DNA of 39,048 bases from a virus: IMG/VR virus record IMGVR_UViG_3300042988_000985, positions 1 to 39,048 of that record. One strand, written 5' to 3'. The position numbers were made by a program, and so were the translations under genes. Positions 7,401-34,250 of this stretch are shown piece after piece. The first letter of the stretch is position 1. Each line of letters starts with the position of its first letter. The notes below the pieces were generated by a model that was given only the letters and a program-made list of their open reading frames with translations, had not been told where the DNA came from and did no database searches.

Positions 7401-8076
7401 CTTCCACGACCGCGTAACTGTCGCTCGTCACCGGCAACTCCACCCCGAACCTCCGCACCGTCGCCGCCTTGTTCTCCGGATGCCGGTCGAAGTACTTGCT
7501 CAAGTAGTCCGCGCACGCCGCCGCCCGCTGATGCGCGTCCATCGTCTGCGCGTCCTTCACGCGCATCACCCGCGTCTCCACCTCCTCCAGCGACGCCAAG
7601 CCCACCCGCGCCAAGAACTCCATCACCATGCTGTTCTTCACCCCGGCGATGTCGTAGATTTCGTGCAGCATCCGGATGCACGTCCGGTCCTTCCGCCGCG
7701 CCCCCTCCGTCACCGCATCGACGTACGACTTGACGTTCTCCGGACTGTTGAACGCCGCCAACATCGCGTTCTTGTTGTCCGCCACCAGCAACTGCACCTG
7801 CCGCGCGAACGCGTCCCGCGCCCCGTACGGCACCGTGTGCTCCCCGCTACTGCCGTCCGGCATGATCCGCCCAGCCGCCAGCGTCCGCAGCCCGTCAGCC
7901 CCCGACAGCTTCGGCACCCCAACCGAGTTCAGCGCCGGAACGCCGTATTTCGATTCTGGCGGGCCTTCACCGCCACCCCCTTGCCCAGAGTCATCCCCGC
8001 CCCCGTTCGTCGATCCTGGGGCATCCTCGTGCGTTCTAGGGCCATCCCCAGCGTCGGGTGCGGTAGCGGCAGACAC
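7390..8076 (-). CDS. Putative terminase small subunit
   Basis: About 228 residues from the GTG at 8076; an ATG at 8112 would add a stretch overlapping the previous gene. The first 50 or so residues are disordered, Gly/Asp/Pro-rich and include dispersed repeat copy A (8011-8030). A helical core follows (ARDAFARQVQLLVADNKNAM, then a helix pair near residues 135-190). The call rests on position just before the large terminase and a helical DNA-recognition-like core; no helix-turn-helix is certain. A repeat inside such a gene would suit a packaging site, but that is speculation. Confidence 0.55.
   Translation of the reverse strand: MSAATAPDAGDGPRTHEDAPGSTNGGGDDSGQGGGGEGPPESKYGVPALNSVGVPKLSGADGLRTLAAGRIMPDGSSGEHTVPYGARDAFARQVQLLVADNKNAMLAAFNSPENVKSYVDAVTEGARRKDRTCIRMLHEIYDIAGVKNSMVMEFLARVGLASLEEVETRVMRVKDAQTMDAHQRAAACADYLSKYFDRHPENKAATVRRFGVELPVTSDSYAVVEDES
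8011..8030 (-). repeat. Dispersed 20-bp element, copy A
   Basis: The minus strand reads ACGAGGATGCCCCAGGATCG, 18 of 20 bases matching the consensus CCAAGGATGCCCCAGGATCG. It lies in the 5' coding part of the putative small terminase gene. Ten-bp-phased similarity to copy E continues on the plus strand with GTTCTAGGG (8033-8041). Confidence 0.8.
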
Positions 8077-8078
8077 GG

Positions 8079-8396
8079 CTAGCGGCCCTCGCGTGGGTTG
8101 GTGGGGTCCCACAGATCGGTATCAAGCCCACCCGGCCTGCCCGTCCCGTGCCCCCCCGGTGCCGCCTGCGGCTCGGCCGCCTGGCGCGCCGCCATCTGGG
8201 GCCGCGTGGCCAGAACCTCGCCGCTCCGCATGGCAGCGTAGGTGCAAGCGCATCGCACGCACTGCCTTACACGGCCGGTGCGCTCGACCGCATCGCCCGC
8301 AACGCGCTCGACGGGCGGGCCCGCTACGCTGTGCTCGCAGCCGCAAGCCGGGCACGCAGCCGGTGCGGCGATTGCTACCCTGCGCCAGAAAGTCAA
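8079..8396 (-). CDS. Zinc-ribbon protein, first gene of the leftward arm
   Basis: The frame encodes CPACGCEHSVAGPP, then about 19 residues later RQCVRCACTY. This C-x2-C...C-x2-C spacing is that of a zinc ribbon followed by an aromatic residue, as in small phage DNA- or nucleoprotein-binding proteins. A TTG at 8396 with AAAGGG six bases upstream gives 105 residues; no ATG or GTG is suitably placed, so the start is uncertain. Third codon positions are G/C-rich through most of the frame. The stop lies two bases before the GTG of the next gene. A regulator of late transcription is possible by analogy with Ogr-type proteins only. Confidence 0.55.
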   Translation of the reverse strand: MTFWRRVAIAAPAACPACGCEHSVAGPPVERVAGDAVERTGRVRQCVRCACTYAAMRSGEVLATRPQMAARQAAEPQAAPGGHGTGRPGGLDTDLWDPTNPREGR

Positions 8397-8671
8397 AGGC
8401 AAACCCTTTCTAATAAAGGAGATGCGGGCTTCGCAGACCGTCGCCAATACCGCTTTGGACCGTGCTAGGGGCCAGTATGGGGCGAAGTAGGCCCTACAGT
8501 CAGGTCCGCATACGCGCCGCAGGGTGCGCGAGCTGGCCCGGCCGAGCCTTAGGTTAGGCGTAGTGGTGGACCTGCCGCGCTCGCGCGTCCTGGTGGCGCT
8601 GGCGTCAAGGTGCGCTGGTGCGGCGAGCGCCGTCAAGGGCGGCGTGGCGGGCCAGTGGAGTTCACGGCCGG

Positions 8672-8698
8672 GCGGCGGGGGCGGGCCGCGCTCTTTTT
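8672..8698 (+). terminator. Weak intrinsic-terminator-like hairpin
   Basis: GCGGC (8672-8676) pairs with GCCGC (8685-8689) around a G-rich loop and is followed by CTCTTTTT. The stem is only 5 bp. It would stop rightward transcripts entering the divergent region; no rightward gene upstream requires it. Confidence 0.25.
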
Positions 8699-8761
8699 GC
8701 GTCGTGGGCTGGTGGGCTGGGGGCTGGTTCGCTGGACGCCGGAGCCGTATGCCGTTGAGGC

Positions 8762-8792
8762 ATTTTACACACAAGGCGGCATTCTGTGTCAA
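8762..8792 (-). promoter_or_regulatory. Sigma70-like promoter for the leftward (structural) arm
   Basis: The minus strand reads TTGACA (8792-8787), a 19-bp spacer, then TAAAAT (8767-8762). The flanks match the promoter at 5611-5640 (TTGACACAG...ATG...GTAAAA). It is about 370 bases ahead of the zinc-ribbon gene and faces the terminase and head genes. Confidence 0.55.
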
Positions 8793-8951
8793 GTCTGATG
8801 CGCCGCAATGGGTTATGCGGGCGAGCATTGATTTGGCGTGGGATTACGCACGCAAAAGCGGCGGGTCATGTTTGTTTTTCGTGGACAGGCTGGCCCGCTT
8901 TTTGGCCTGCGGGGCGACTTGTCAAATCGCCAAGCACGCTACCTTTTCCCA

Positions 8952-8980
8952 TTGACGGCGAGAGTGCTTGCGCCGATACT
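8952..8980 (+). promoter_or_regulatory. Sigma70-like promoter for the rightward arm
   Basis: TTGACG (8952-8957), a 17-bp spacer, then GATACT (8975-8980). This is a good host-type match, 90 bases before the first rightward ATG at 9069. It is the best candidate for the early promoter of the long chain of small genes. Confidence 0.55.
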
Positions 8981-9068
8981 GTCTCACGTAGGGCAGCACG
9001 GTGCCGCGCCGAGCCGCGAAAGACGCGGCGGTTGACGCGGCGGGAAGCGGAAACGGGGGGAAGCGAAC

Positions 9069-9389
9069 ATGACGCTACGGGAGTTTGCGGAAGGATGCGA
9101 GATGCCATCGCGCATCGATCTGTTGGCCATGCTGGACGAGGCCGCTGCGCGTTGGAACGAGTTGTCCGATGGCGGCGTGGAGATGTGCGCCGCATTCGAC
9201 GTGGCCCTGCTGTGCTACGCGCTCAGCATGTCGCGCAAGGTGCCGCAGGCGTGGAAGGCTGCGGCGAGCGTGCGGCTGGACACCATGCGGTTCCGGCCGT
9301 CGCCGATGTTCCGGACGCAGCGCGACGTTCTCCGCGACATGGCCATGGGGCGCGCGTGGTACTTCGCCGCCCGCGAGCGTGCGTCATGA
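9069..9389 (+). CDS. Hypothetical protein, first gene of the rightward arm
   Basis: A 106-residue, mainly helical, Ala/Arg/Met-rich protein (MTLREFAEGCEMPSRIDLLA). The ATG at 9069 follows a purine-rich GGGGGAAG site. As the first gene behind the rightward promoter it is likely expressed earliest. No family recognised. Its TGA overlaps the next ATG. Confidence 0.75.
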   Translation: MTLREFAEGCEMPSRIDLLAMLDEAAARWNELSDGGVEMCAAFDVALLCYALSMSRKVPQAWKAAASVRLDTMRFRPSPMFRTQRDVLRDMAMGRAWYFAARERAS

Positions 9390-9496
9390 CGCGCCGTTCG
9401 GTTTCGGCCCTTGCAGCAGCGGCGGGCATGGTGCTCGCGTTCTGGGGGTTTGTGGTGGCGCTTGGGCTGCTGTGCGATGGGGGGCTTGTGCGATGA
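9386..9496 (+). CDS. Small single-span membrane protein
   Basis: A 36-residue protein starting with ATGA overlap. After MTRRSVSALAAA comes a hydrophobic stretch (GMVLAFWGFVVALGLLC) long enough for one membrane span, with an Arg-rich N-terminus that should stay cytoplasmic. The stop again overlaps the next start. Function unknown. Confidence 0.6.
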   Translation: MTRRSVSALAAAAGMVLAFWGFVVALGLLCDGGLVR

Positions 9497-9831
9497 GCGC
9501 GAACGTAGCGTTTCGGTCCGAGCGCCATACCGACGCATCGGGTCGCACGGTAGAGACTGGCATTTGCGTTCACGGGCTTTCGGAGTACGCCGCTTGCGGG
9601 TCCGTGATTGACCCGATTGCGGGCCGCGCCGTGCTCTATTCCTCTGAGCGCGGCGATCTGTCGTCGTGGGATGGCGAGATTCGGTATCCAGCCCGTTTCG
9701 GCTCGTGGCATCGGTGCGGGTTTGGATGGGGCACCAAGCGGCGCGCCGTGACCGCTACGCTTCTCGGCCAGAAGTGGCACGGTTGGGAGTGGAACACGCA
9801 TCAAATCGTGCGCCTCAAGGTGGCCAAGTGA
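9493..9831 (+). CDS. Hypothetical protein
   Basis: A 112-residue protein linked by ATGA overlap upstream and GTGA overlap downstream. It is rich in Trp, Gly and His (for example FGSWHRCGFGWGTKRR) with alternating beta-like segments and ends KWHGWEWNTHQIVRLKVAK. Compact beta proteins of this type are common in phage early regions. No function assigned. Confidence 0.7.
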   Translation: MSANVAFRSERHTDASGRTVETGICVHGLSEYAACGSVIDPIAGRAVLYSSERGDLSSWDGEIRYPARFGSWHRCGFGWGTKRRAVTATLLGQKWHGWEWNTHQIVRLKVAK

Positions 9832-10043
9832 CCGCCTACGCTCGCCTATCGCGCCTTGTGCGTGAGGCGGAGGACGCGCAGCGTTGGGGCGCGTTCGCGG
9901 TGAGGGCCGCGCGGGGTTTCCTCGTGCGGCAGGGAGCTGGGGACATTCGGCGGGCGGCGCACTGGCGCAGGGCGGCGCGCCTGGCGTTTCGGCGGGCCGA
10001 ACAGAAACGGGAGCGGGCGATCAACTCAAACGGGAGGGTTTGA
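9828..10043 (+). CDS. Small basic helical protein
   Basis: 71 residues from a GTG that overlaps the previous stop. Arg and Ala dominate (ARLAFRRAEQKRERAINSN), predicting one or two amphipathic, strongly positive helices that could bind nucleic acid. No family recognised. Coupling and G/C-rich third codon positions support it as a gene. Confidence 0.6.
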   Translation: MTAYARLSRLVREAEDAQRWGAFAVRAARGFLVRQGAGDIRRAAHWRRAARLAFRRAEQKRERAINSNGRV

Positions 10044-10045
10044 CG

Positions 10046-10567
10046 ATGGCACGGGAATACATCGACGCGGCCGTGGCGGCGAAAATGCTGCGCGAGGCAC
10101 TGAAACGGAACTTTCCGGGGGTCAAGTTCTCGGTGCGGACCTCCAAGTATTCGGGCGGGGCATCGGTGCGCGTGTCCTACGCCACTGGCCCGACCGTGGA
10201 ACGCGTTCAGTCGGTCGCGCAGCGGTTCAGCGGTGCGGACTTCGACGGCATGACGGACTCCAAGTCCTACCATTCGGCCGTGCTCGTCGCGCCGGATGGG
10301 GCGATGCGCGAAGTCCACTTCGGGAGCGATTACGTTTTCGTGGACCGCGACGAGCCGCAGGGCCTTTACGACGCCGTGGTTGCCAAACTGGCCGCGTCGT
10401 GGGAGCCGGTCCAGTGGGCCAAGATGCCGGACTATGAGCGGGAACGCATGGCACGGCGCGGCATCTGCCTGATTGACCTGCCGCTGGGCGAACCGCTGGA
10501 CGTTTCGGCGGAAAGGGCTGTCGCGGCGTTCTTCGGGCGTGAGGTGCAGCCGGAGAAGGCCCGCTAG
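10046..10567 (+). CDS. LPD29-like domain protein
   Basis: 173 residues. The N-terminal half reads KMLREALKRNFPGVKFSVRT, then YSGGASVRVSYATGPTVERV, then FSGADFDGMTDSKSYHS. This order matches Large Polyvalent protein-associated Domain 29, found on phage and plasmid polyproteins and as stand-alone phage proteins; its biochemical role is not established. The ATG at 10046 lies behind GGGAGGG. Dispersed repeat copy B begins just after the stop. Confidence 0.7.
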   Translation: MAREYIDAAVAAKMLREALKRNFPGVKFSVRTSKYSGGASVRVSYATGPTVERVQSVAQRFSGADFDGMTDSKSYHSAVLVAPDGAMREVHFGSDYVFVDRDEPQGLYDAVVAKLAASWEPVQWAKMPDYERERMARRGICLIDLPLGEPLDVSAERAVAAFFGREVQPEKAR

Positions 10568-10571
10568 GCTT

Positions 10572-10591
10572 CCAAGGATTCCCCATGACGG
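10572..10591 (+). repeat. Dispersed 20-bp element, copy B
   Basis: CCAAGGATTCCCCATGACGG matches the consensus at 16 of 20 positions. It starts four bases after the stop of the LPD29-like gene. The reverse strand continues like copy E (AAGCCTAGCGGG versus AGGTTCTAGGGG). Confidence 0.6.
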
Positions 10592-10682
10592 CCGAACGGC
10601 CGGTGGCGAGGGTGTAGGCGCAGGGGAACGCCCGCGAGGGCTAGAAAGGGCATGACATGACAAGGGAACGTGAGGCGCGGCT

Positions 10683-10826
10683 ATGAGCGCGCGCTGGCAA
10701 GGACCGGGCGACGACTGGCAAGGGCTGCCCTTGTGGCTGGGCCTGCTGATCATCAGCGCGGCGACGGTAGTAACCTGGCGTGCCGTGGCGATGCTGTACG
10801 CCGTGACGGCGGGGGCCAGCCAATGA
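10683..10826 (+). CDS. Small single-span membrane protein
   Basis: 47 residues starting MSARWQGPGDDWQGLPLWLG, with a hydrophobic span LWLGLLIISAATVVTWRAVA. A nine-codon ORF (10657-10686) precedes it and overlaps its ATG as ATGA, which may be a translational leader. The stop overlaps the next ATG. Function unknown. Confidence 0.6.
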   Translation: MSARWQGPGDDWQGLPLWLGLLIISAATVVTWRAVAMLYAVTAGASQ

Positions 10827-11092
10827 CGCGGGCCGTTTGGACCGTGCTCGCGTGTAAGGACTGCGCGCTGCCATTGCCGCGCCAGCTTGGGCGGCAGGGG
10901 CGGCAGGTTGAGAGGTGCCGGGAATGCCACGCGCGGCACAACCGCACCTACCAGCGGGACTACAAGCGGGCGATGAGGGCCAAGGCGCGGGAGGCGGCAC
11001 GGCCGGAGTATCCGCCGGAGGACTGCCAGGGGTGCGGGCGACCGATGAAGCACGGGGCGGGCGGGAAATGCGCGGAGTGTTTGGCGCGCTAG
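10823..11092 (+). CDS. Zinc-finger protein
   Basis: 89 residues with two cysteine pairs in the N-terminal half (CKDC, about 24 residues later CREC) and two in the C-terminal half (CQGC, CAEC), suggesting two zinc sites. Between them is a very basic helix (YKRAMRAKAREAARPE). Such small treble-clef-like proteins often bind nucleic acid or HNH-type partners, but no catalytic histidines are seen. Role unknown. Confidence 0.65.
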   Translation: MTRAVWTVLACKDCALPLPRQLGRQGRQVERCRECHARHNRTYQRDYKRAMRAKAREAARPEYPPEDCQGCGRPMKHGAGGKCAECLAR

Positions 11093-13488: not shown

Positions 13489-13766
13489 GCCGCGAAAAGA
13501 ACCCCGGCGCTGTGGCGCTGGCAAGGCTCGGCGGACAGGCAGCAGCGGCCCGGCTTGCCAAGCGAGCGGCCACGATGACGGCTGAGGAACGCACCGACCT
13601 TGCTCGCTACGCCGCAAGTTGTCGGTGGATCAAGCGCCGGCCAATCGCGTCGCTCGCACACCTTCTGAGGATTCTCGCGAGCATGTCCACCGACCCGACC
13701 GGGAACGCGGCAACCAAAGCGCGCGAACTTGCGGACGTGTTCGATTCGTGGGAGGCGAAGCCATGA
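13485..13766 (+). CDS. Small basic helical protein
   Basis: 93 residues from GTG 13485. The N-terminal segment, KNPGAVALARLGGQAAAARL followed by MTAEERTDLARYAASCRW, is the Ala/Gly-rich two-helix pattern found in many small bacterial and phage proteins of unknown role. The C-terminus holds a hydrophobic helix and an acidic end. Possible nucleic-acid binding is speculation. Confidence 0.65.
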   Translation: MSREKNPGAVALARLGGQAAAARLAKRAATMTAEERTDLARYAASCRWIKRRPIASLAHLLRILASMSTDPTGNAATKARELADVFDSWEAKP

Positions 13767-13990
13767 CCGCCCGCACGCCGAAGCGCGCGAAGCCGGATGC
13801 GCTGGCGAAGCTGCTGGGCTGTCCGTTCTGCGGCGGACGCGCTAACGCGCATTCGATGGACGGTACCACGGCCTATGTGCGCTGCGGTGAGTGCGGCACT
13901 GTGTCGGGCGTGTGGCCTACCGAGCGCATGGCGATCCATGCGTGGAACACCCGCTACCTGTCGCGCCCGTCGCGGGGGCGCAAGCCATGA
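13763..13990 (+). CDS. Lar-like restriction-alleviation zinc protein
   Basis: 75 residues. LLGCPFCGGRANAHSMDG, then YVRCGECGT, then an Ala-Trp-Asn ending (AIHAWNTRY) is the pattern of Lar-family proteins: C-x2-CG near the start, C-x2-CG after about 20 residues and a conserved AxxAWN segment. Rac prophage Lar modifies EcoKI-type restriction, but most family members are uncharacterised and the function here is inferred. GC-rich, ATGA-coupled. Confidence 0.75.
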   Translation: MTARTPKRAKPDALAKLLGCPFCGGRANAHSMDGTTAYVRCGECGTVSGVWPTERMAIHAWNTRYLSRPSRGRKP

Positions 13991-14193
13991 GCCGCCGCAG
14001 GTGGCGCTACTACGCAACGCGGTCGAAGCGCGACGGCTGGTATATCCGCGCCGAGAGCAAGAGGCCGAGCCTGCTAGACATTCCGTTCTTGCTACCGCGA
14101 GAGAACACGGCCGGAGAGCGCAAGGCGTGGCCGATGGCCACTGAGCATGTGGCCCGCGCGATTGCCGACCTGCTGAACGAGCGTGCGTCGTGA
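13987..14193 (+). CDS. Small hypothetical protein
   Basis: 68 residues, basic and aromatic at the N-terminus (MSRRRWRYYATRSKRDGWYI) and helical at the C-terminus. Coupled on both sides by ATGA or GTGA overlap. No family recognised. Confidence 0.65.
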   Translation: MSRRRWRYYATRSKRDGWYIRAESKRPSLLDIPFLLPRENTAGERKAWPMATEHVARAIADLLNERAS

Positions 14194-14615
14194 GCCGCGC
14201 CCTGCTGCTGCTCGCGCTGGCGTGCGCCTCGTGGTGGGGAACGGCGGGGGCGCAGGGCGTCACCGTCACCTTCCGTATGCCGCTCTACCACGACGCACGC
14301 CCGCTCTCCGGCGTTCCCGACACGACGAAGCCGCTGTCCACGGGCCACCACCGCTGGGAGATCGGCTACAGCACGCAGAGCAAGGCGTGCCGGGACTCGG
14401 GGCTGGCGTGGTGCCGCGACATCCGCAACATGGGAGCGTGGCTGCCAGGCGCGCAGATCGTCGTGTTCAGGTCGGGCTACGCGCTGCCGGGTGAGTACGT
14501 CGTGGCGGAGAGCCTGTACGTTTCGTCGTTCTCGTGGCCCTTCGCAATATGGGGCAGGGCGTGGACGGCTGTACCGGGGCGGTGGACGCTGATCGGGGAG
14601 AGGTCTAGTAACTAA
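14190..14615 (+). CDS. Exported protein of unknown function
   Basis: 141 residues from GTG 14190. The N-terminus MSRALLLLALACASWWGTAG followed by AQ is a Sec signal peptide with a likely cleavage near AGA-Q. The mature part (about 119 residues) is beta-rich, with three Cys in or near ACRDSGLAWCRD and many Trp/Tyr residues. It is the only clearly secreted product in the early arm. Modification of the periplasm or cell surface is plausible but unproven. Confidence 0.7.
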   Translation: MSRALLLLALACASWWGTAGAQGVTVTFRMPLYHDARPLSGVPDTTKPLSTGHHRWEIGYSTQSKACRDSGLAWCRDIRNMGAWLPGAQIVVFRSGYALPGEYVVAESLYVSSFSWPFAIWGRAWTAVPGRWTLIGERSSN

Positions 14616-14643
14616 CCGCCCGCGAGGGCAAGGAGGAATCAGC

Positions 14644-15183
14644 GTGGTTCCCGAGTTCAAAGAGTTCCCGAAGATCGCGCGCCTCAACAGGCCGTGTATC
14701 ATCACCGAGAAGATCGACGGCACCAACGGCTGCATCATCGTGACGCCTGACGGCGTGTGGGCGCAGTCGCGCAACCGCGTGCTCGCGCAGGATACCGACC
14801 CGTTCGGCTTCGCGCTCTGGGTCGAGCAGAACAAGGACGCGCTACGCGGCGTGCTGGGCGACGGCTACCACTTCGGCGAGTGGTTTGGGCGCGGCATTCA
14901 GCGCACCTACGGGATGGACGTGCGGCGCTTCGCGCTGTTCAACGTGGACCGCTGGGGCGACGTTCCGCTGTGCGATGGCCTGACCACCGTTCCGGTGCTC
15001 TATCGCGGCCAGTTCACCACGAACGCCGTGCTCAACGCCTTGGCGCTGCTGCGCGCTGATGGTTCCAAGATCGCCGATGGATTCATGCGCCCAGAGGGGG
15101 TTGTGATCTACCACGAGGCCGCGCAGATCGGCTTCAAGGTGACGCTGGAGCGCGACGAGGAGCGCAAGGGCAACCGCCACTAA
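14644..15183 (+). CDS. RNA ligase (Rnl2-like nucleotidyltransferase)
   Basis: 179 residues from GTG 14644. The nucleotidyltransferase motifs are in order: motif I EKIDGTNG near residue 22 (Lys is the adenylation site), QSRNR, motif III-like YHFGEWFGRG near 75, motif IV PEGVVIY near 155 and motif V GFKVT. This matches small Rnl2-type phage RNA ligases that seal breaks in host tRNA or other RNA. The lack of an OB domain fits RNA rather than DNA ligase. A HAD phosphatase 1.4 kb downstream may act with it. GAGGAAT serves as RBS. Confidence 0.82.
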   Translation: MVPEFKEFPKIARLNRPCIITEKIDGTNGCIIVTPDGVWAQSRNRVLAQDTDPFGFALWVEQNKDALRGVLGDGYHFGEWFGRGIQRTYGMDVRRFALFNVDRWGDVPLCDGLTTVPVLYRGQFTTNAVLNALALLRADGSKIADGFMRPEGVVIYHEAAQIGFKVTLERDEERKGNRH

Positions 15184-15224
15184 CCGCCCGCACACGCGCG
15201 GCGCGAAAGGATGGTAAGGGGATG
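15181..15224 (+). repeat. 44-bp boundary repeat, copy 1
   Basis: It matches 15661-15704 with a single mismatch at its eighth base. It starts at the TAA of the RNA ligase gene, holds an AAAGGATGG-type RBS and ends at the ATG of the gene at 15222. It is a duplicated gene junction. Confidence 0.9.
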
Positions 15225-15602
15225 GACATTCAGGCGATGGTGGATGGGATGTACGCGCGCTGGCAGCGCGAGCGCGCAGCGTCGCAGATGACGCTCGGCA
15301 AGATGATCGAAGCGCTGGCGGCAATGGACCCAGAGAAGAAGATGTCGGGGCTGCACGCGCCGCACAGCTATCGCGGCTACTACCGTGACCTCGCGTTCGA
15401 GGCCAGCCACACCGATGACACAGCCGGGACGCTGCTGGCCCTGTGCCGCTCGTGCATGGGAGAGACGTTCGAGGGCTACAAGGGCGGCGACTTCGACATG
15501 GGCGCGCAGACTCCCGTGTGGGTGGCGAACTACGGCGACACCGGAGTGAAGATCGTCGGCTTCGACGACAACGGGCGTGTGCTGACGCAGGAGGACGAGT
15601 GA
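15222..15602 (+). CDS. Conserved phage protein of unknown function
   Basis: 126 residues. The sequence MTLGKMIEALAAMDPEKK, then SYRGYYRDLAFE, then FEGYKGGDFDMGAQTPVWVA is the signature order of a conserved small phage protein seen across unrelated tailed phages; no role is established. Its start is set by the repeated RBS block 15181-15224. It ends with TGA overlapping the GTG of a mini-ORF. Confidence 0.75.
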   Translation: MDIQAMVDGMYARWQRERAASQMTLGKMIEALAAMDPEKKMSGLHAPHSYRGYYRDLAFEASHTDDTAGTLLALCRSCMGETFEGYKGGDFDMGAQTPVWVANYGDTGVKIVGFDDNGRVLTQEDE

Positions 15603-15697
15603 CCTCCGCGCGCGAAGCCGCCGCCCTCGGGGCCGACGAACTGGCGGCCAAACTGTCTGATAACCGCTCGCACACGCGCGGCGCGAAAGGATGGTAA
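15599..15697 (+). CDS. Mini-ORF built from two repeats (possible remnant)
   Basis: 32 residues from GTG 15599. Its first 34 bases equal the 5' ends of the genes at 15983 and 16527 (peptide AREAAALGA). Its last 37 or so bases are copy 2 of the 44-bp junction repeat. It therefore looks like a recombination chimera of two boundary segments rather than a selected protein. It may still be translated because of GTGA coupling. Confidence 0.4.
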   Translation: MTSAREAAALGADELAAKLSDNRSHTRGAKGW

Positions 15698-15704
15698 GGG
15701 GATG
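15661..15704 (+). repeat. 44-bp boundary repeat, copy 2
   Basis: Same as 15181-15224 apart from one base. It provides the RBS and start of the gene at 15702 and the 3' end of the mini-ORF 15599-15697. Confidence 0.9.
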
Positions 15705-15986
15705 AGTAAGCACGAGATGGAGACGAGTGCCACCACGGTTCCGCAGGCGGACGCTTCAGGTCAGTTCGACATTCCTTCAGCCGTGCCGGAGTCCGGTCCT
15801 GCGGCAGAGGATTCCGGGCTCGTCCTTTCTGGTGAATGCGCTGGACCTCGTAGGCTGACGGATCGAGAGTGTGCCCTGCTGGCATATGGCGCACTCAAGG
15901 CAGTAGGCGGCATCTCGTGCCGCGAGATGCTTGCGATTCTCGCGGAGTCGCTGAATGTTGTGCCACGCGCGGAGCCGTCCAAGTGA
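15702..15986 (+). CDS. Hypothetical protein
   Basis: 94 residues from ATG 15702. The first half is Ser/Ala/Pro/Glu-rich and probably disordered. The second half (TDRECALLAYGALKAVGGIS) is helical and ends NVVPRAEPSK. Its 5' end derives from the same duplicated junction as the gene at 15222, but the proteins are unrelated. Function unknown. Confidence 0.65.
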   Translation: MSKHEMETSATTVPQADASGQFDIPSAVPESGPAAEDSGLVLSGECAGPRRLTDRECALLAYGALKAVGGISCREMLAILAESLNVVPRAEPSK

Positions 15987-16252
15987 CCCCCGCGCGCGAA
16001 GCCGCCGCCCTCGGGGCGCTGCTGCGGGAGATGCTCCCCGACGACGCCCGCGTTGACACCGTTGTGACTGCGATCACCGGGGAACAGGCCACGGCCCTCG
16101 CGGCGTTCGCCGACGCGGCCGATGCGCTGCGGGACGAATACAATTCGCTCGTCATCGCGTGCGTTGCGGGAACTGCGGACAGCACGGACCTGCGCCCACT
16201 GGAGGCGTATCGAGCCGCCCGCGCCGCGCTGGTGGCCGCGCTGACGGAATGA
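15983..16252 (+). CDS. Helical hypothetical protein, parent of the repeat mini-ORFs
   Basis: 89 residues, GTG start overlapping the previous TGA. It begins MTPAREAAALGALLREM and ends ARAALVAALTE; both ends recur fused together in the 23-residue ORF at 16527. The protein is Ala-rich and almost wholly helical, with ITGEQATALAAFADAADALR in the middle. No function recognised. Confidence 0.65.
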   Translation: MTPAREAAALGALLREMLPDDARVDTVVTAITGEQATALAAFADAADALRDEYNSLVIACVAGTADSTDLRPLEAYRAARAALVAALTE

Positions 16253-16258
16253 GGCAGG
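16226..16258 (+). repeat. 33-bp repeat, copy 1
   Basis: It matches 16560-16592 with one difference, T at 16250 versus G at 16584. This changes TGA (stop) here to GGA in the other copy, so that copy reads through. Confidence 0.9.
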
Positions 16259-16260
16259 GG

Positions 16261-16530
16261 ATGAGCAGCAGCGATCTGCCGGGTAATGTCGCTCACCTGA
16301 TGCGTCAGGTGGCTGATGGCGAGTTCGGCATCTTCAAGCGCGAGGCGCGAGAGATTGGCCCCGAGGCGTTCGCGGAAAAGTACGGGCATAGCGTGTGGCT
16401 GTGGGGCCGCCCCGACCCGATCTACAAGTGCGTTCGCCACGAGGGGACGGACTACCTATGGCGGCTGTCCGACGGCGGATTCGATGGCTGGGACGGCATC
16501 AACCTGCCGCCGCAGGAGCATCGGCCATGA
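16261..16530 (+). CDS. Hypothetical protein
   Basis: 89 residues, MSSSDLPGNVAHLMRQVADG start. A helical N-terminus is followed by a Trp/Gly/Asp-rich beta part (KYGHSVWLWGRPDPIYKCVR). No family recognised. It lies between the parent gene and the fused mini-ORF and is flanked by their repeats. Confidence 0.65.
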   Translation: MSSSDLPGNVAHLMRQVADGEFGIFKREAREIGPEAFAEKYGHSVWLWGRPDPIYKCVRHEGTDYLWRLSDGGFDGWDGINLPPQEHRP

Positions 16531-16598
16531 CCCCCGCGCGCGAAGCCGCCGCCCTCGGGGCGCTGGTGGCCGCGCTGACGGAAGGAGGCAGGACGTGA
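16527..16598 (+). CDS. Mini-ORF: fused ends of the 15983 gene (deletion remnant)
   Basis: 23 residues, MTPAREAAALGALVAALTEG then GRT. The first 34 bases copy the 5' end of the gene at 15983 and the next 33 (16560-16592) copy its 3' end. The whole middle is absent, as expected after an internal deletion in a tandem duplicate. ATGA and GTGA overlaps connect it to its neighbours, so it may persist as a coupling cassette for the HAD gene. Confidence 0.45.
   Translation: MTPAREAAALGALVAALTEGGRT
16560..16592 (+). repeat. 33-bp repeat, copy 2
   Basis: Second copy of the 3' end of the gene at 15983, placed directly after the third copy of its 5' end (16527-16560). The copy carries G at 16584 in place of T, removing the stop. 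Confidence 0.9.
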
Positions 16599-16921
16599 CG
16601 GCGTCTGGTTGGATCGGCGTGGACCTCGACGGGACACTGGCCGTCTATGATGGCTGGAAGGACGGGGCAATCGGCGAGCCTGTTCCCGGAATGTTGTTCC
16701 GCGTTCGCAAGTGGCTCGTGGACGGCGTGGCCGTGAAGTGCATGACAGCGCGTGCGTCTGTCCCCGAGGAAGCAGCCAAGGTTCGCGCGTGGCTCGACTC
16801 GCACGGATTGGAGGCGGTGGGGGTCACTGACCGGAAAGACTTCGCCATGATCGAACTGTGGGATGACCGCGCGGTTGCGGTGGAGCCGAACAAGGGTACG
16901 CCGCTGCGGTGGCCCCGATGA
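16595..16921 (+). CDS. HAD-family phosphatase
   Basis: 108 residues from GTG 16595. Motif I is GVDLDGTLAVYD near residue 8 (nucleophile Asp and acid/base Asp). Motif II is the Thr of KCMTARAS near 50. Motif IV is the acidic IELWDD near 92. This minimal HAD is similar in organisation to phage 5'-nucleotidases and to the 3'-phosphatase half of polynucleotide kinase. With the RNA ligase nearby, RNA-end healing is an attractive inference, but no kinase partner is present and the substrate is unknown. Confidence 0.75.
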   Translation: MTASGWIGVDLDGTLAVYDGWKDGAIGEPVPGMLFRVRKWLVDGVAVKCMTARASVPEEAAKVRAWLDSHGLEAVGVTDRKDFAMIELWDDRAVAVEPNKGTPLRWPR

Positions 16922-18067: not shown

Positions 18068-18175
18068 CGCTGAAAGGGCAGCGAGGAGGCTAGCCGAACA
18101 GTGGGAACTCGCCGGGGAGCAGGGAGCGCCAGCGGTGGGGCAGGACGGCCCCGGGCGCAAGGCCGCGCCAGAGCG

Positions 18176-18195
18176 CCAAGGATGGCGCAGGAAGG
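18176..18195 (+). repeat. Dispersed 20-bp element, copy C
   Basis: CCAAGGATGGCGCAGGAAGG matches the consensus at 16 of 20 positions and contains the ATG at 18182. It is the left half of an inverted pair with 18243-18262, 47 bases apart. Confidence 0.55.
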
Positions 18196-19108
18196 GCAAA
18201 CGCGCCCCGACGAATGGTTTCGTACGGACGTGGGAGGATCGCCAGTCCTAGGGCATCCTGGGGGCTTGTGGAAGATCGACCTGAAGGAGCCTCACCAGGT
18301 CTACAAGAACGCGGCGGGGACTCGCCTGCCCGGCGTAACGTCGGTTTTGGGCGTTCTCGACAAGGCGGCGCTGCGTGGCTGGTACGCGGACATGGAGCGG
18401 CGGCACGTTTTGTCCTGCGTTGCCGCCGTTGCCGCTAACCCGCTGCTGTCGCTGTCGGAGCTTCTTGGCGAGAAGTGGGCCGCTGACGTGAAGAAAGGCC
18501 GGTCGGCCGATATTGGCACGGTGGCCCACGCCCGCTGTGAGGCGTTTCTGCACGGGATGGTGCTGGACGAAGAAGGGCTTGACCCTGACCTGTTGCGCCT
18601 GAGCCTGAATGGCTTTGCTCGTTTTCAGGACGTGTGGGTGCGCGAGGGCCTGTCAATCGTCCACAGTGAACTCCAGATGGTTTCCGAGCGCCGACAGGTG
18701 GGTGGCACGGCCGACATTATTGCTCGCAGGCCGGACGGTGGCTTGGAGTTGAAGGACCTCAAGACGAGTAAGGCGTCGCGTGGGTGGCCGTACCCCGAGG
18801 TGTTCGCTCAGGTTGCGGCATATGCGGAGATGTGCGAGGAGGTAGGGGTAGGGCACATCGACGTAGTTTCCGTGGAGCGCATTGGCAAGGAGGACGGCGA
18901 CCCCGGCCAGTCCTATGTCCTGACGGGCGAGGAGCGGGCGGTGGGACTCAAGCTGTTCGACGCGGCCTTGGCGGTGTATCGCGCAGGGCGTGCGCTGTAC
19001 GGGATCAGGAACAAAGGGGCGAGCGGCAATCCGGCTGGTTCGGGCTTCGGCGCGGCCAAGCTAGACCCGACGCCCCCAACTCGCATCGCGGAGGAAGCGC
19101 CGTGGTGA
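18182..19108 (+). CDS. RecB/Cas4-like PD-(D/E)XK nuclease
   Basis: 308 residues from ATG 18182. The nuclease core is VGGTADIIARRPDG (conserved Asp), LELKDLKTSKAS (acidic-x-Lys strand) and YPEVFAQVAAYAEMCEE (Q-x3-Y motif), the pattern of RecB-family exonucleases. The N-terminal part, LPGVTSVLGVLDKAALRGWY, is also typical. Next to an SSB-like gene, DNA processing in recombination or replication is likely. The start is uncertain. GTG 18101 adds Arg/Gly-rich sequence with poor codon use. TTG 18266 starts right after repeat C' and near where homologous sequence seems to begin. Another frame (18033-18251) has better third-position G/C in this gap. Confidence 0.75.
   Translation: MAQEGQTRPDEWFRTDVGGSPVLGHPGGLWKIDLKEPHQVYKNAAGTRLPGVTSVLGVLDKAALRGWYADMERRHVLSCVAAVAANPLLSLSELLGEKWAADVKKGRSADIGTVAHARCEAFLHGMVLDEEGLDPDLLRLSLNGFARFQDVWVREGLSIVHSELQMVSERRQVGGTADIIARRPDGGLELKDLKTSKASRGWPYPEVFAQVAAYAEMCEEVGVGHIDVVSVERIGKEDGDPGQSYVLTGEERAVGLKLFDAALAVYRAGRALYGIRNKGASGNPAGSGFGAAKLDPTPPTRIAEEAPW
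18243..18262 (-). repeat. Dispersed 20-bp element, copy C'
   Basis: The minus strand reads CCCAGGATGCCCTAGGACTG, 16 of 20 matching the consensus. It is inverted relative to copy C. The outer arms GCGCCAAGGATG (18173-18184) and CATCCTGGGGGC (18254-18265) pair at 10 of 12 positions. Confidence 0.65.
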
Positions 19109-22364: not shown

Positions 22365-22537
22365 GCCAGAAGGAGCCTTTTGAGGCCATGCATTCGGTCG
22401 TGGCCGAACTCAAGCGCCTCTATTCCATCGAGGCCAGGCTCAGCCTGTTCTCCGGCTGTCCAGTTGGCTCCAGCCCGTCCGAGCACCAAGAAGCCCTGCT
22501 GAGAGTGATGCGGTCATGGAAGGAGGATAGGGCGTGA
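22361..22537 (+). CDS. Small helical hypothetical protein
   Basis: 58 residues starting MSQKEPFEAMHSVVAELKRL, two predicted helices, ending RSWKEDRA with its TGA inside the next GTG. No family recognised. Confidence 0.55.
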   Translation: MSQKEPFEAMHSVVAELKRLYSIEARLSLFSGCPVGSSPSEHQEALLRVMRSWKEDRA

Positions 22538-23082
22538 CCTCCGTAAATGCCCCAGGATCGCTTTCGGCACCCGCCCCCGACTCCGAGGCCGTGTGGCTGC
22601 CCGAAAGCCCGTCTGGGGGCATCCTTGAGCGCCTGAGGGGCTTCTCCGCCGCCGACGACGAGTGGTGGCACGAGGAACGCCGCAACGCCTGCCGCGCCTA
22701 CCTTGGCACCCTCCTCGGCTGGTACGCCGGGGCTGCCAATCCGTCAGTGTCGGTCGGGGCGTCGGACATGAACTGCGACCTGCACCGGCTCATGCTCGCC
22801 GACCTGCGGGCCAACTTCCCGTGGGCCGACGTGATCGACCTGTTCGGGTACCTCGCCTGTGGGGAGGCCGCCGCCCGCTTCGGGGCCGTCATGGTCCGGC
22901 AGGAGTGGACCGACTGCCTCGCACTGGGGAGTCGCTGGTGCGATCTGGACGCCGTGGCCGAGGCGGTACACTTCTGCCGCCGCCGGGACGAACGGGCCAA
23001 ACTCATCAAGCGAATGGCCGGGGTCGCGCACTCCCCGGAGGAAGTCACGCGCCTGTGCGCCATACTCGCGGAGGTCCGCTAG
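22534..23082 (+). CDS. Hypothetical protein, last gene of the rightward arm
   Basis: 182 residues from GTG 22534. The first 35 residues are low-complexity and are encoded by the inverted pair D/D', which forms a 76-base hairpin. The rest is helical with many Trp/Cys/His (DDEWWHEERRNACRAYLGTL; FGYLACGEAAARFGAVMV; HFCRRRDERAKLIKRMAGVA). No function is recognised. The gene ends at the palindrome-rich convergence zone. Confidence 0.65.
   Translation: MTSVNAPGSLSAPAPDSEAVWLPESPSGGILERLRGFSAADDEWWHEERRNACRAYLGTLLGWYAGAANPSVSVGASDMNCDLHRLMLADLRANFPWADVIDLFGYLACGEAAARFGAVMVRQEWTDCLALGSRWCDLDAVAEAVHFCRRRDERAKLIKRMAGVAHSPEEVTRLCAILAEVR
22541..22560 (+). repeat. Dispersed 20-bp element, copy D
   Basis: CCGTAAATGCCCCAGGATCG carries the exact 13-bp core ATGCCCCAGGATC seen in A, E and F. 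It lies in codons 3-9 of the gene at 22534. Confidence 0.8.
22609..22628 (-). repeat. Dispersed 20-bp element, copy D' (inverted partner of D)
   Basis: The plus strand reads CCGTCTGGGGGCATCCTTGA, 15 of 20 matching the reverse consensus. With D it forms two stems: ATGCCCCAG with CTGGGGGCAT (one bulge), and GCTTTCGG (22560-22567) with CCGAAAGC (22601-22608). Confidence 0.6.
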
Positions 23083-23185
23083 CACCCGCCCGCGCAAGGC
23101 GGCGCAGCACAAAAGGAGATTCGAATCTGCGTGAGTGACACAGAGCGCCCCGGCGACCGAGCAGGCCACCGGGGCGTCACTGTTA

Positions 23186-23223
23186 CGAAACATCTGCACT
23201 TGTGCACAAGTGACGATGTTTCG
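23186..23223. repeat. 38-base nested palindrome
   Basis: CACTTGTGCACAAGTG is a perfect 16-base palindrome. It is flanked by TG/AC and then by CGAAACATC/GATGTTTCG, a perfect 9-bp inverted repeat. It could be an operator for a dimeric or tetrameric regulator, a replication signal or a bidirectional terminator. The 16-base centre resembles operators of HTH regulators in form only. Confidence 0.75.
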
Positions 23224-23266
23224 CCACACGGGGCTAACTTGACCCCGTATGTCGCGCAGACAGCAA

Positions 23267-30012: not shown

Positions 30013-30771
30013 TTAGACCTGCCTGTACCGCAAGAAACTGCCCGCCTTCATCGTCACGTTTGTCCCCGCCGTCTCCGAAGCGAGGTTCAACTGCCAGACG
30101 CCCGAAGGCGATGCGCCCACGATCATCTGCACCTGCATCTGCGCGGGCCACGATCCGGTCGTCGTCGGCAGCCCGCCAACGGGGCCGAGCACCGCCCCGG
30201 CCATGTTGCCGTTCTGCATGACGATGGTTCCGGCCGCGCTGGTCGTTTGCAGGAACGCCACGCCGTCCGTCAGCCCCGAGGGCCACGAGCATCCCGGACG
30301 CGGCCCCACCGTCGCCGTCGCCGTCCGCAGCAGCATGTAGACCTCGACCATGTACGTCTTGCCAGCCGCCGGGGCGAAGTTCATGCCCGTCACCGCCACG
30401 GCCGTCGCGCTGGAGGTAGCGAAGTCGCCCGCGAGCTTGACCACTGTCCACGGATCGGAGCTGCCCGCCGGAGCCGCCCACGAGTTGTCGTCGCGCAGGA
30501 ACTTGGTCCCGTCCGGAGTACCGGTGGGAACGGCCGCCTTGCCCGCCAGGGCCGTGACGAGTCCCGTCACATCCGCCTGCGCGTGCGTGTGGGGCGAGGC
30601 CGCCTTCCCAGAGAGCGCCGTATCCAGCCCGACGACTTCCGAGGTCGGGTGCGTGTGCGGGGCCGCCTGCGCCGCAGGAGCCTCCCACGCCCCGTCGCCG
30701 CGCAGGAACTTGGTGTCGTCGGCGGTGCCGGAGCCGAGGTTGGCCGTCGGGACGGTGCGGAAGTGGCTCAT
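30013..30771 (-). CDS. Tail fibre protein with GTxDxTKFLR repeats
   Basis: 252 residues from ATG 30771. Two tandem modules, GTADDTKFLRGDGAW and GTPDGTKFLRDDNSW, occur with PHTHPTSEVVGLDTALSGKA and PHTHAQADVTGLVTALAGKA. These are typical of trimeric phage tail-fibre shafts. The C-terminal 140 residues (beginning SDPWTVVKLAGDFATSSATA) form a beta-rich head that could bind receptor or peptide partners. ATGA overlap to the preceding fibre gene. Confidence 0.8.
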   Translation of the reverse strand: MSHFRTVPTANLGSGTADDTKFLRGDGAWEAPAAQAAPHTHPTSEVVGLDTALSGKAASPHTHAQADVTGLVTALAGKAAVPTGTPDGTKFLRDDNSWAAPAGSSDPWTVVKLAGDFATSSATAVAVTGMNFAPAAGKTYMVEVYMLLRTATATVGPRPGCSWPSGLTDGVAFLQTTSAAGTIVMQNGNMAGAVLGPVGGLPTTTGSWPAQMQVQMIVGASPSGVWQLNLASETAGTNVTMKAGSFLRYRQV

Positions 30772-31391
30772 ACGATGATCCAGTTCGCGCCAGTGGAGAC
30801 GAGCGTCAGGGAGTTGCCCGCCGCGATGGTGCCCGGCGCGGCCCCGTCGATGGTCTGCCCGCCAGTCGTCGCGAGCGTGATCGTGCCTGCACCCGAGTTC
30901 TTGATGATGTAAACCGTCCCGGCGGTCATTGAGCCACCACCGCTGGCCACGACTGCGGTAGGCAGGGTGAGGGTCGGAGAGTTGGCGGTCACGTTCACAA
31001 CACAATCGTCTGTCGTTAGTGGATAGTCAGCCGTCTTGGCGACGTAGTGCAGCATGAGGCCGCGCGCTACCCCGAGGACTCCGCCAGTGTCCACATAGCC
31101 GCAGATGAGGTTGGCGAGCGTGTCCTCACCACTATGGGTTGACTCGATGGAGGCGTCGAAGGTGGTGGGGGCGTTGAAGGTCGTGTTTCCGTTCAACGTG
31201 TTATCGCCCGTGAACGTGTTGTCCCCAGCCAGCGTCGGCACCCGCAGGTTGGCGGCTGCCTCGGCCACCGTCCGCGCCCCCGTCCCGCCCATCCCAACCC
31301 CCGCCGGGGCGTCCTGCTGCCGCTGCCCCGACGCCGAACTGCTTGACCTTTGCGGGACATGACGCTGCCTCATGCCAGTGGTGGCGGTCAC
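30768..31391 (-). CDS. Tail fibre or spike shaft protein
   Basis: 207 residues from GTG 31391, with GGAGGGGG seven bases upstream. An N-terminal Gln/Ser-rich part is followed by GMGGTGARTVAEAAANL and a run of six-residue repeats (FTGDNTLNGNTTFNAPTTFD), the pattern of beta-solenoid fibre shafts. The C-terminal part ends TLVSTGANWIIV, a common fibre ending. The 130-bp gap upstream carries the best copy of the dispersed element (E). Confidence 0.75.
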   Translation of the reverse strand: MTATTGMRQRHVPQRSSSSASGQRQQDAPAGVGMGGTGARTVAEAAANLRVPTLAGDNTFTGDNTLNGNTTFNAPTTFDASIESTHSGEDTLANLICGYVDTGGVLGVARGLMLHYVAKTADYPLTTDDCVVNVTANSPTLTLPTAVVASGGGSMTAGTVYIIKNSGAGTITLATTGGQTIDGAAPGTIAAGNSLTLVSTGANWIIV

Positions 31392-31422
31392 TCGGCCCCC
31401 TCCGGCATAGCCCCTAGAACCT

Positions 31423-31442
31423 CCAAGGATGCCCCAGGATCG
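31423..31442 (+). repeat. Dispersed 20-bp element, copy E (consensus)
   Basis: CCAAGGATGCCCCAGGATCG lies in the only non-coding gap of this part of the tail module, 31 bases before the GTG of the fibre gene. On the reverse strand it forms ten-base blocks TCCTGGGGCA, TCCTTGGAGG, TTCTAGGGGC. Confidence 0.85.
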
Positions 31443-31521
31443 CGTTTCTCCCCCTCGGACGGCCTCGGAGTCGTCCGGCCGCCAAAGATGGGCCAGAAGG
31501 GCCATGTGCGGACACGGCGGG

Positions 31522-32871
31522 TCAACGGTTCTTCTCCCGAAGCCCCTGCTCCACCTCGCGCTGCTTGAAAAGGTCCATCGGCGTCTGCCACGGCTCCCCA
31601 CGGCGCAGAAGCTCCATCAGGGCGCGCGGGACGTTCTGGAGCGCGGGCTGCGTCACCGGGTGCTCCATCGTCCGACCGATGCCAGTCATCTGCTGCGGCG
31701 ACAGCCACTCCAGAGGGTTGAACGCCACGCGCGGCGCTCCACCACCCGCCACGGCTCGCGGCGAGGCCGTCGCGTCCCGGCCAACCTCGGCCGCCTTCGC
31801 TGCCCGTTGCACGCCAGTCAGTTCGCGGTAGCGGTTGTTCAGCGCCGTGTAGCCGGGCACCTTCGCAAGCCGCTGGTTCAGTACCGCCTGCAACTCGGCG
31901 TTCACCAACTGCTCGGCATCGGCACGATTGTCGGCTGCCGCGTTTCCAACCGAAGGCTTGGCACGCTTCTGCAACAGGTCAACCGAGACTTCCTGCGCGC
32001 CCTGCTTCTTCTCCCAAGCCGACAGGTTGTCCCACACACCAGGATTCTCCGCCCGGATGCCCTTGATAACCCCATCAACTTCGTTGAGGATTTCGGCACG
32101 CTGCGGACGACGGCCCAACTTCTTCCACAACCGCCTGCGGACTTCCTCCGTCACCTGGGCAACGTCGTGCTGCGTTGCGTCCTTGTTGAGCGTCGCTTCG
32201 ATGCGGGGGCGAATCTTGTTCAACTCAAAGCTCGCCGCCTGACTCCCCGTGACCGGCCGAAAGTTGCCCAGCGCCTTCTCGCCAATCCCGCCCGGCTCTG
32301 GACCCTCCGAAATCGTCCTCGGGTTGCTGACGCCAATGCGCTCGCGCGACGCCACGCCGCCGATGTCACCGAAGCTCTCATTCAGCACGGGGTCGGTATT
32401 GAACACCTTGCGCTGCAACCCGCGCCCGGCCGCTGCGCTCAGCCCGCCCATCGCCTCGCCCGCACCCTGGGCCATCGCCTGTGTGGCCGCCTCATCCATC
32501 GGGTTGGTGCCAGCAATGGGCGACGCGGCTGCACCAGCGCCGCCAGCCGCCAACATACGGAGCAGTGGCGCATACCGCACCCCAGACATCCACGGACCGC
32601 CAAGCGCCCCAGTCGCAACCGTCGCCGCAATGCTCGGGGCCGCCAGACGCAACTGCTCGCCAGTCGTCAGGCCGCCGGGATTCAGCATCGCATCCTCGGA
32701 CGACACCTCAAGCGGCAGGTTCTTGATGTCCGATTCCATCTTCGCGGTGCGCGGCTGCCAGTCCTTCTTGTACTTCTTGTACTGCTCGTAGTCCTTGGCG
32801 TTGCTGATCGGGAAGCGATACTCAACCCCGCTGACCGGGTGCCGGAGGGTCTTGACGATGTTCCTAGCCAT
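31522..32871 (-). CDS. Probable internal virion (ejection) protein
   Basis: 449 residues. The N-terminus (MARNIVKTLRHPVSGVEYRF) is followed by a Lys/Tyr-rich helix (KDYEQYKKYKKDWQPR). Residues about 80-150 include Ala/Gly-rich apolar stretches (IAATVATGALGGPWMSGVRY; MLAAGGAGAAASPIAG) that could insert into membranes. The rest is helical. The position after the nozzle and before the fibres fits the genes for ejection proteins in podoviruses. Assigned by context. Confidence 0.5.
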   Translation of the reverse strand: MARNIVKTLRHPVSGVEYRFPISNAKDYEQYKKYKKDWQPRTAKMESDIKNLPLEVSSEDAMLNPGGLTTGEQLRLAAPSIAATVATGALGGPWMSGVRYAPLLRMLAAGGAGAAASPIAGTNPMDEAATQAMAQGAGEAMGGLSAAAGRGLQRKVFNTDPVLNESFGDIGGVASRERIGVSNPRTISEGPEPGGIGEKALGNFRPVTGSQAASFELNKIRPRIEATLNKDATQHDVAQVTEEVRRRLWKKLGRRPQRAEILNEVDGVIKGIRAENPGVWDNLSAWEKKQGAQEVSVDLLQKRAKPSVGNAAADNRADAEQLVNAELQAVLNQRLAKVPGYTALNNRYRELTGVQRAAKAAEVGRDATASPRAVAGGGAPRVAFNPLEWLSPQQMTGIGRTMEHPVTQPALQNVPRALMELLRRGEPWQTPMDLFKQREVEQGLREKNR

Positions 32872-32873
32872 CG

Positions 32874-34250
32874 CTATTGCCCCCCTGCCGAAGTCGCGCC
32901 AGTGGGCGGCACAAGGTAGCCGTCCTTGTCGCGCTCGCCGCTCTGATCGGGCACCGTCGGGTCAACCGGCGCGATCTGCGTGCCGCGCTTCTCAAGGTTC
33001 GGGATCGCCAACGAGGGGTCAACCCCGTACTGCGCCGCCAACTTGTCCAGCCACTCGCGCGCATTGCGGTAGGCGTCCCGCTTGCGGTTGTAGTACAGGC
33101 TCGCAAGCCGAACCATGTCGGCGCGCTGATCGGGGTGCAGGAACTTACCGCTCGCCGCGCGCTGGTACGCCGACCATACCCATGCCGGGATTCCAGCCGT
33201 CTTGACCGCCCGCTCGTACTCGCCCTCTCGCACAACCGACGTGGGGTCCAGCACTCGCATGAACGAGAACACCAGGGCCATGTCCGAAAGCCCAGTCTTC
33301 CCGCCTTCAGCCGCCGAGTCGCTGATGCGGAGGTACGAGTCGCGCACGTCGGGGAACTGCGAGATGTCCTTGTTCGTCCGGGCCGCCAGCGTCAGCCGCC
33401 CGATGTTGGAGTCTCCGCGCGAACGGTTGGCAATCCACGCCTTGTATCCAGCGGTGGTCCGATACTCCTTCGGAACCCCCAGCGACTCGTACTGCTCCGG
33501 ACTCAGTTCCTCAGCCCCGTCCGCGCCCATCTTGCGCCGGATCAGCGCCACCTGAACATCCGTCAGTCCGCGCTGGTACTCCTTGCTCTTGTTGAGGTAG
33601 TCCTCCGACGCCAACTTGTTCTTCTCGGCGCGCTTGTCAGCCGCGTACTTCGGGACTCCGCCTACTAGCGCCCCCGCCGCAGGCATGTACGCCCCAATCG
33701 TCTTGTTCTGGCCTGGGCTGGGGCGCGGTCCCGGCAACTTGCCCAGCACATCCCCAGCAATAGTCGCAAACGCCTCCCAGCCGGGATGGCTAGCCTGAGC
33801 CATTTGCGGCTGCGCTGGGGGCTTTCCCATGAGGTCTACGGGCGTTTTGTCGAGGTAGGGGTCGGAAGCCGATCCTGGGGCATTTGTGGCCCCCAGCCGG
33901 GTCTCCAAGAACTGCTTCAAGAGCGCCAGCGCCTCGGGCGAAGGCGTGCTCGTCACCGTCCCGCCAGCCGCGTAGTTCCCGCCGATGTTGAACGGCGCGA
34001 CCGCACCGGCCCCGGACGCCCCAGCCCTCAGCAGCGCCATCAAGTCCTGAATGCTCATCTGCCCGTTCACCGCGTTCTCGCCCGCCCCGCCAATCGCCCG
34101 GCCCGCGCCGTACCCGGCCACCGCTCCGGCAGGGCCGCCAGCCACCATGCCGACGCCCCCGCCGAGAATCCCGGCGGCCGTGTCCAGCCAGTCCGCCTTG
34201 CGCTCCGGCTGGCGGCTGGCGAAGTAGCGCACCCAATCCTGCGCGTTCAC
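32874..34250 (-). CDS. Probable internal virion (ejection) protein
   Basis: 458 residues from GTG 34250; a TTG at 34256 overlapping the previous TGA is an alternative. Residues about 20-60 are Gly/Ala-rich and apolar (ILGGGVGMVAGGPAGAVAGY), a membrane-active-looking stretch like those of ejection proteins. The middle is helical, and the C-terminus holds charged helices and a disordered Gly-rich tail. Dispersed repeat copy F lies inside, encoding TNAPGSAS. Confidence 0.5.
   Translation of the reverse strand: MNAQDWVRYFASRQPERKADWLDTAAGILGGGVGMVAGGPAGAVAGYGAGRAIGGAGENAVNGQMSIQDLMALLRAGASGAGAVAPFNIGGNYAAGGTVTSTPSPEALALLKQFLETRLGATNAPGSASDPYLDKTPVDLMGKPPAQPQMAQASHPGWEAFATIAGDVLGKLPGPRPSPGQNKTIGAYMPAAGALVGGVPKYAADKRAEKNKLASEDYLNKSKEYQRGLTDVQVALIRRKMGADGAEELSPEQYESLGVPKEYRTTAGYKAWIANRSRGDSNIGRLTLAARTNKDISQFPDVRDSYLRISDSAAEGGKTGLSDMALVFSFMRVLDPTSVVREGEYERAVKTAGIPAWVWSAYQRAASGKFLHPDQRADMVRLASLYYNRKRDAYRNAREWLDKLAAQYGVDPSLAIPNLEKRGTQIAPVDPTVPDQSGERDKDGYLVPPTGATSAGGQ
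33870..33889 (-). repeat. Dispersed 20-bp element, copy F
   Basis: The minus strand reads CCACAAATGCCCCAGGATCG, 17 of 20 matching the consensus and identical to copy D over ATGCCCCAGGATCG. It lies inside an ejection-protein-like gene in the sense orientation. Confidence 0.8.

Follow-up and report, generated by a model that had tools for sequence, protein, structure and literature searches.

A dispersed DNA motif of phased units and inverted arms in a phage genome and in unrelated uncultured phages

The 14-bp sequence ATGCCCCAGGATCG recurs exactly at four distant places in the window, the whole 39,048-bp stretch analysed here (a virus record with a 134-bp terminal repeat), and its flanks recur in dozens of unrelated uncultured phage contigs among the matches listed. 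The core belongs to a 31-bp motif built of CCNAGGAT units at 10-11 bp phase, and the full form appears from the sequence to be a symmetric element of about 100 bp with two facing 31-bp arms. Tentatively, we read each site as a copy of a DNA element that acts in cis and is bound by a protein; we infer the protein binding, its multimeric nature and the most likely use, which would be transcription control at gene junctions.

The repeat in the window genome

The window genome is GC-rich and densely coding, with genes called by a simple codon-usage script. Early DNA-metabolism genes (exonuclease, single-strand binding protein, Holliday-junction resolvase and RNA ligase) lie on the plus strand, and the structural protein encoded at 32874-34289 is distant kin of Mx8 proteins and of enterobacterial podovirus DNA-transfer proteins. 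The product of the putative small terminase gene (terS) had no family match of its own. Searches of INPHARED, IMG/VR and GTDB contigs with a set of its proteins, among them the terminase large subunit (TerL), portal, capsid and tail proteins, turned up no close relative of the window phage, and relatives of its metallophosphoesterase were distant only.

All four exact copies reported in the initial annotation were recovered (sites A, D, E and F; Table 1). Of the positions given there, 8011 and 33870 are those of the core itself, while 22541 and 31423 are starts of a 20-bp frame in which the core begins at 22547 and 31429. No other 14-mer occurs at four dispersed places in the 39-kb genome, and the repeat count is above chance, as the maximum number of dispersed copies in synonymous-codon shuffles was 2 (37 of 40 shuffles) or 3 (3 of 40). 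The degenerate sites likewise matched the 20-bp consensus as described, at 16 of 20 positions for B (10572, plus), C (18176, plus) and C' (18243, minus) and at 15 of 20 for D' (22609, minus). With the 20-bp profile, the number of equally good sites expected in a shuffle was about 0.3 in the case of B, C and C' and about 2.5 in the case of D'; singly, the degenerate sites are thus weak and near chance, yet they cluster with one another.

When a 31-bp profile built from the four exact sites was scanned against dinucleotide shuffles, five further sites scored above 14.2 against 0.2 expected. Most of the weak sites found with this profile were close to each other or to exact sites. Similarity reached 87% over 31 bp between A and E, 78% over 37 nt between D and F and 71% over 66 nt between D' and E. 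Because the flanks of the four exact cores were otherwise near background, the core is under more constraint than its surroundings.

Table 1 Motif sites, associated boxes and terminase genes in the window
Feature	Position	Strand	Remarks
TerL	5656-7224	-	PHROG terminase matches
Putative terS	7390-8076	-	assigned by position upstream of TerL only; carries site A
Site A	8011-8041	-	exact core 8011-8024 plus upstream unit CCCTAGAAC
Site B	10572-10591	+	degenerate, between genes; 10551-10591 and the D' flank agree at 78% over 41 nt
Site C	18170-18268	both	two-armed; arms 18170-18200 (+) and, inverted, 18238-18268 (-); spacing 68
Site D	22535-22634	both	two-armed; arm 22535-22565 (+) with exact core 22547-22560; inverted arm D' 22604-22634 (-); spacing 69
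Box CGACTCCGAGGCCGT	22578-22592	+	near-palindromic; symmetry axis of site D
Site E	31412-31447	+	CCCTAGAACCTCCAAGG plus exact core 31429-31442
Box ACGGCCTCGGAGTCG	31459-31473	+	+30 from the E core; same place in L006, L008, L048 and L085
Possible second half-site near E	31482-31501	+	weak; direct orientation; chance-level alone
Weak degenerate site	33790-33809	-	80 bp from F
Site F	33870-33883	-	exact core, inside ORF 32874-34289

Placement at or near gene boundaries, which had been proposed for most sites, held for some of them. B and E are intergenic, the latter in a gap (about 31392-31521) upstream of a minus-strand tail-type gene, and C, which has no exact core, lies at or just before the exonuclease start. 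A and D are inside genes: A is about 52 bp into the putative terS gene, where the translation reads HEDAPGSTN, and D is at the very start of a plus-strand gene (22534-23082), with its core 13 bp inside. F lies well inside its gene and reads NAPGS in a linker-like stretch. Site E is oriented opposite to its downstream gene; A, D and F run along with theirs.

The global minimum and maximum of GC skew are no more than 300 bp away from sites A and D (8011 and 22547), close to the switch in transcription direction; for the carrier group as a whole, a link to GC-skew extremes was absent. Elsewhere in the window, a short stand-alone gene (10040-10567) encodes a product with LPD29, a domain named for large polyvalent proteins. 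The region 13748-16921 holds a gene for a Lar-like restriction alleviation protein (13748-13990) and an RNA ligase gene (14644-15183) near a weak polynucleotide-kinase-type match (16595-16921), the last two possibly an RNA repair pair. Local segments are duplicated at 15181-16592, where a 60-bp repeat (15181/15661, 87%) ends at gene starts and a 41-bp element (15600, 15984 and 16528) also lies near gene starts; this looks like tandem duplication of small genes. At 23180-23230, in the gap after the last plus-strand gene at a convergent junction, there is a nested inverted repeat (CGAAACATC...CACTTGTGCACAAGTG...GATGTTTCG) that is terminator- or operator-like.

Recurrence and architecture in unrelated phages

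IMG/VR was scanned for the 14-mer, and all figures for carrier contigs concern the matches listed. Many contigs among these carried it, nearly all of them without protein similarity to the window. We applied two-component EM to the flanks of at least 103 non-redundant occurrences, with random positions in the same contigs as the null. A single 31-bp motif accounted for about half of the occurrences, with a log-likelihood ratio of 266 where the null reached at most 67, and with one contig per protein-linked cluster (at least 45 contigs) the ratio was 108 against a null of at most 61. The 14 core positions were fixed by the search and therefore carry no independent weight, so that the evidence for the motif is that of the flanks. 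Similarity between copies dropped to background beyond about 31 bp. Individual contigs came close to particular window sites: the unrelated contig L181 was near-identical to site A over 38 nt, and the GGCCTCGGAGTC box of site E was found at equal distance from the core in L006, L008, L048 and L085.

The window phage has four exact copies, whereas the other contigs usually had one among the matches listed; a 19-bp pattern with up to three mismatches gave one copy in 41 of 42 records and two in the remaining record, figures that are lower bounds because ascertainment by the exact core hides degenerate members.

The arm consensus is roughly ARACGCNCCAGGATGCCCCAGGATCGAYKWT, and the 10-bp phasing first noticed in the window held across phages. 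Relative to the core unit, CCNAGGAT units were found at -10 in 37 of 56 sites, at -20 in 5 and at -31 in 4, against a background of about 1% (among the matches listed); L051 carries the series GCCAGGATAC/CGCCAGGACGC/GCCAGGATGC/CCCAGGATCG. On the opposite strand, relaxed-profile matches piled up at offsets of 66-70 (66 in L141, 67 in L006, 68 in L030 and L181, 69 in site D and 70 in L135), and no inverted partner occurred at these offsets in 51 control contigs. Inverted arms at 66-70 bp were thus found in C, D and at least five unrelated contigs. A search for inverted arms 64-72 bp apart, in which the exact core was not required, recovered the same outside contigs, and within the window it ranked D best (36.9) and C second (27.6), with nothing else above the cut-off. 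Although C and C' are chance-like singly, this ranking marks C as a genuine two-armed element. A recognisable second arm is present in a minority of motifs only, which counts against the protein-bound reading.

The box at the axis of site D, CGACTCCGAGGCCGT, recurs inverted at E and in contigs of the L006 type; in general, no second conserved box was found beyond chance in the motif flanks among the matches listed. Within a set of related Mu-like contigs (L180, L046, L147, L021 and L093), four have TTGACA after the motif, at +52 to +55; in most of them it forms a palindrome, TTGACA...TGTCAA, possibly an operator of this group, and TGTTTATAAACA recurs in L046, L021 and L093.

Two facing arms could also pair as an RNA or single-stranded DNA hairpin, a reading that we consider improbable. 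Folding of C and D gave long stems (z = -2.75 and -2.41 for C), E and L006 have stems around GCCTCGGAGT with one compensating change, and downstream complementarity exceeded z = 2 in 8 of 52 contigs against none of 49 controls among the matches listed. However, arms of one element were no more complementary than arms of different elements (0.512 within against 0.519 across, permutation P = 0.66, eight elements), A and F folded no better than shuffles, and the window and seven other carriers gave no Rfam match up to E = 1. As the arms keep their consensus and not their mutual complementarity, binding of a protein to duplex DNA is favoured; the compensating change in E and L006 and the good folding of C point to a hairpin, but more weakly. 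Of the small hairpin mobile element suggested in the initial annotation, the base-paired hairpin is accordingly disfavoured by arm complementarity and a mobile palindromic repeat is possible.

The proposal of a dispersed element with a protein bound along one helix face is supported by the 10-11 bp phased units, the inverted-pair geometry in unrelated phages and the arms held to consensus; the interpretation in the initial annotation, taken as a whole, is partly supported. In such an element, each arm would be a direct array of two to four CCNAGGAT units, each about 10 bp long, which may place successive protein subunits on one helix face. In the full form, about 100 bp long, the starts of the two arms would be 66-70 bp apart with a near-palindromic centre between them, and a multimer could bridge, loop or wrap the whole. 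The putative binder may be phage- or host-encoded.

Placement, sharing and candidate roles

A regulatory operator, a mobile palindromic repeat and a packaging site are each possible: placement at junctions suggests transcription control, variable placement together with in-frame copies suggests mobility, and site A with the proximity of TerL suggests packaging. Outside the window, the motif was enriched between genes, which were of many kinds, and stood in both orientations (among the matches listed). The open frames around it were shorter than those at random positions of these contigs, with 31% against 14% under 120 aa among the matches listed.

Copies within long forward open frames were nearly always translated as [DN]APGS, in linker-like surroundings (L052, L112, L178, L179, L181, L019 and window sites A, D and F, which share this frame of their genes). 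This bias in frame and strand counts against a protein-bound regulatory element. One account would be a conserved [DN]APGS peptide of disordered linkers with the DNA identity as a by-product, as the in-frame peptides of A, D, F, L052, L112, L178 and L181 would allow, and we regard it as very improbable. Many outside copies among the matches listed lie where there is no plausible gene. T stands at -4 in about 10 of 52 (among the matches listed), so that a TAG stop immediately precedes the peptide when A-G follow; in L006, L071, L078, L087 and L109, intergenic copies have a stop just ahead of the peptide frame, and B, C and E lie outside this frame of a gene.

No gene family common to all carriers was found among the matches listed, TerL and a methyltransferase each being present in a minority only, nor was a common DNA-binding gene or a single gene family flanking the motif found among these matches. 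A regulator encoded by a phage would not usually have its site in unrelated phages that share no gene. In GTDB, a tighter pattern found 28 matches in 28 contigs, about chance by our estimate, and several of these were in homologous coding sequence; a repeat of bacterial host genomes was rejected on these grounds. Named phages gave only matches with E of 0.4 or worse, judged in context to be chance, and plasmids gave chance-level matches only. The 14-mer was absent from the literature searched, which is weak as evidence of novelty. It is possible, though doubtful, that one host factor or a widely shared mechanism recognises a conserved two-armed element of about 100 bp in a large number of unrelated phages, all uncultured, and that cultured phages and bacterial chromosomes lack this element.

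It is on balance a doubtful possibility that the motif is a small palindromic element, mobile but non-autonomous and resembling MITEs, ERIC or RPEs, that passes between phages and has the arms as its terminal repeats. Such an element would fit the two inverted arms with a variable centre and the syntenic Mu-like phages that differ in the junction occupied (terS/TerL in L180, TerL/portal in L046), where matching junctions without the motif have about 0-7 bp between genes; the genic copies that read one frame in linker-like stretches are comparable to in-frame RPE fusions (PMC10969869). Against mobility, the usual number among the matches listed was one copy per genome, similarity ends outside about 31 bp and does not span the whole copy, no target-site duplication was noticed on unsystematic inspection, and the GTDB matches gave no repetition in bacterial genomes. 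MITE membership is not established, because multiple near-identical full-length copies per genome were absent (41 of 42 records single-copy, among the matches listed) and what the window copies have in common is limited to the core or to about 31 bp.

It is unlikely, in our assessment, that the motif is a DNA packaging signal of the pac or cosB type whose phased units are the contact points of a small terminase ring. Site A is in the putative terS gene beside TerL, and the SPP1 pac has direct repeats at the start of terS, with about 100 bp as a proposed ring-wrapping length (PMC4737164). TerL was found in 28 of 42 records among the matches listed. Of 24 records other than the window that were 15 kb or longer and had a TerL match, 11 carried the motif no more than about 3.7 kb from TerL (among the matches listed, with kinship ignored). 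However, it was far from TerL in half the records among the matches listed, the window phage has four exact copies, and the terminases of carriers are unrelated or only distantly related, and DNA recognition by small terminases is usually phage-specific.

Comparison with known systems

As a rule, a regulatory or packaging site of phages is found in a single phage group. The stoperators of cluster A mycobacteriophages (L5, TipsytheTRex), to which the window sites had been likened, are similar in that an asymmetric sequence of 13-14 bp is scattered across the phage genome, with many copies in short intergenic gaps. They differ in being confined to related phages, at about 26 copies per genome in fixed orientation, and their orientation correlates strikingly with transcription (PMC9283540). 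The window element has mixed orientation, phased units, inverted pairs and unrelated carriers. Because its copies stand in both orientations relative to transcription, the stoperator identity fails; no repressor was recognised among the proteins scanned, many of which had no family match.

The SAS/ESAS of cluster K mycobacteriophages also combine a short asymmetric site with imperfect inverted repeats and a variable spacer, but they lie at start codons in one phage cluster and have 17-bp repeats (PMC3203893), whereas the element described here has arms of about 31 bp, 66-70 bp apart, in unrelated phages. SAS/ESAS stand immediately upstream of starts; A, D and F are inside genes and most other motif copies are away from start codons (among the matches listed), so that the element falls outside this class by its position.

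MITEs, ERIC and Rickettsia palindromic elements are likewise short, palindromic, mostly intergenic and sometimes in-frame in genes (PMC10969869); the motif differs from them in its usual single copy per phage genome, its lack of bacterial-chromosome repetition and its similarity limited to about 31 bp. The SPP1/SF6 pac is about 100 bp long and, in a position like that of site A, has sets of direct repeats where the small terminase gene begins (PMC4737164). Unlike pac, the window element has several copies, and most carriers have the motif elsewhere (among the matches listed). That phages with no common gene have a 31-bp site in common points either to one host factor on which many phages draw or to a very small piece of mobile DNA that moves from phage to phage. 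The motif might also serve as a marker that groups uncultured phages by their hosts or by a mechanism they share.
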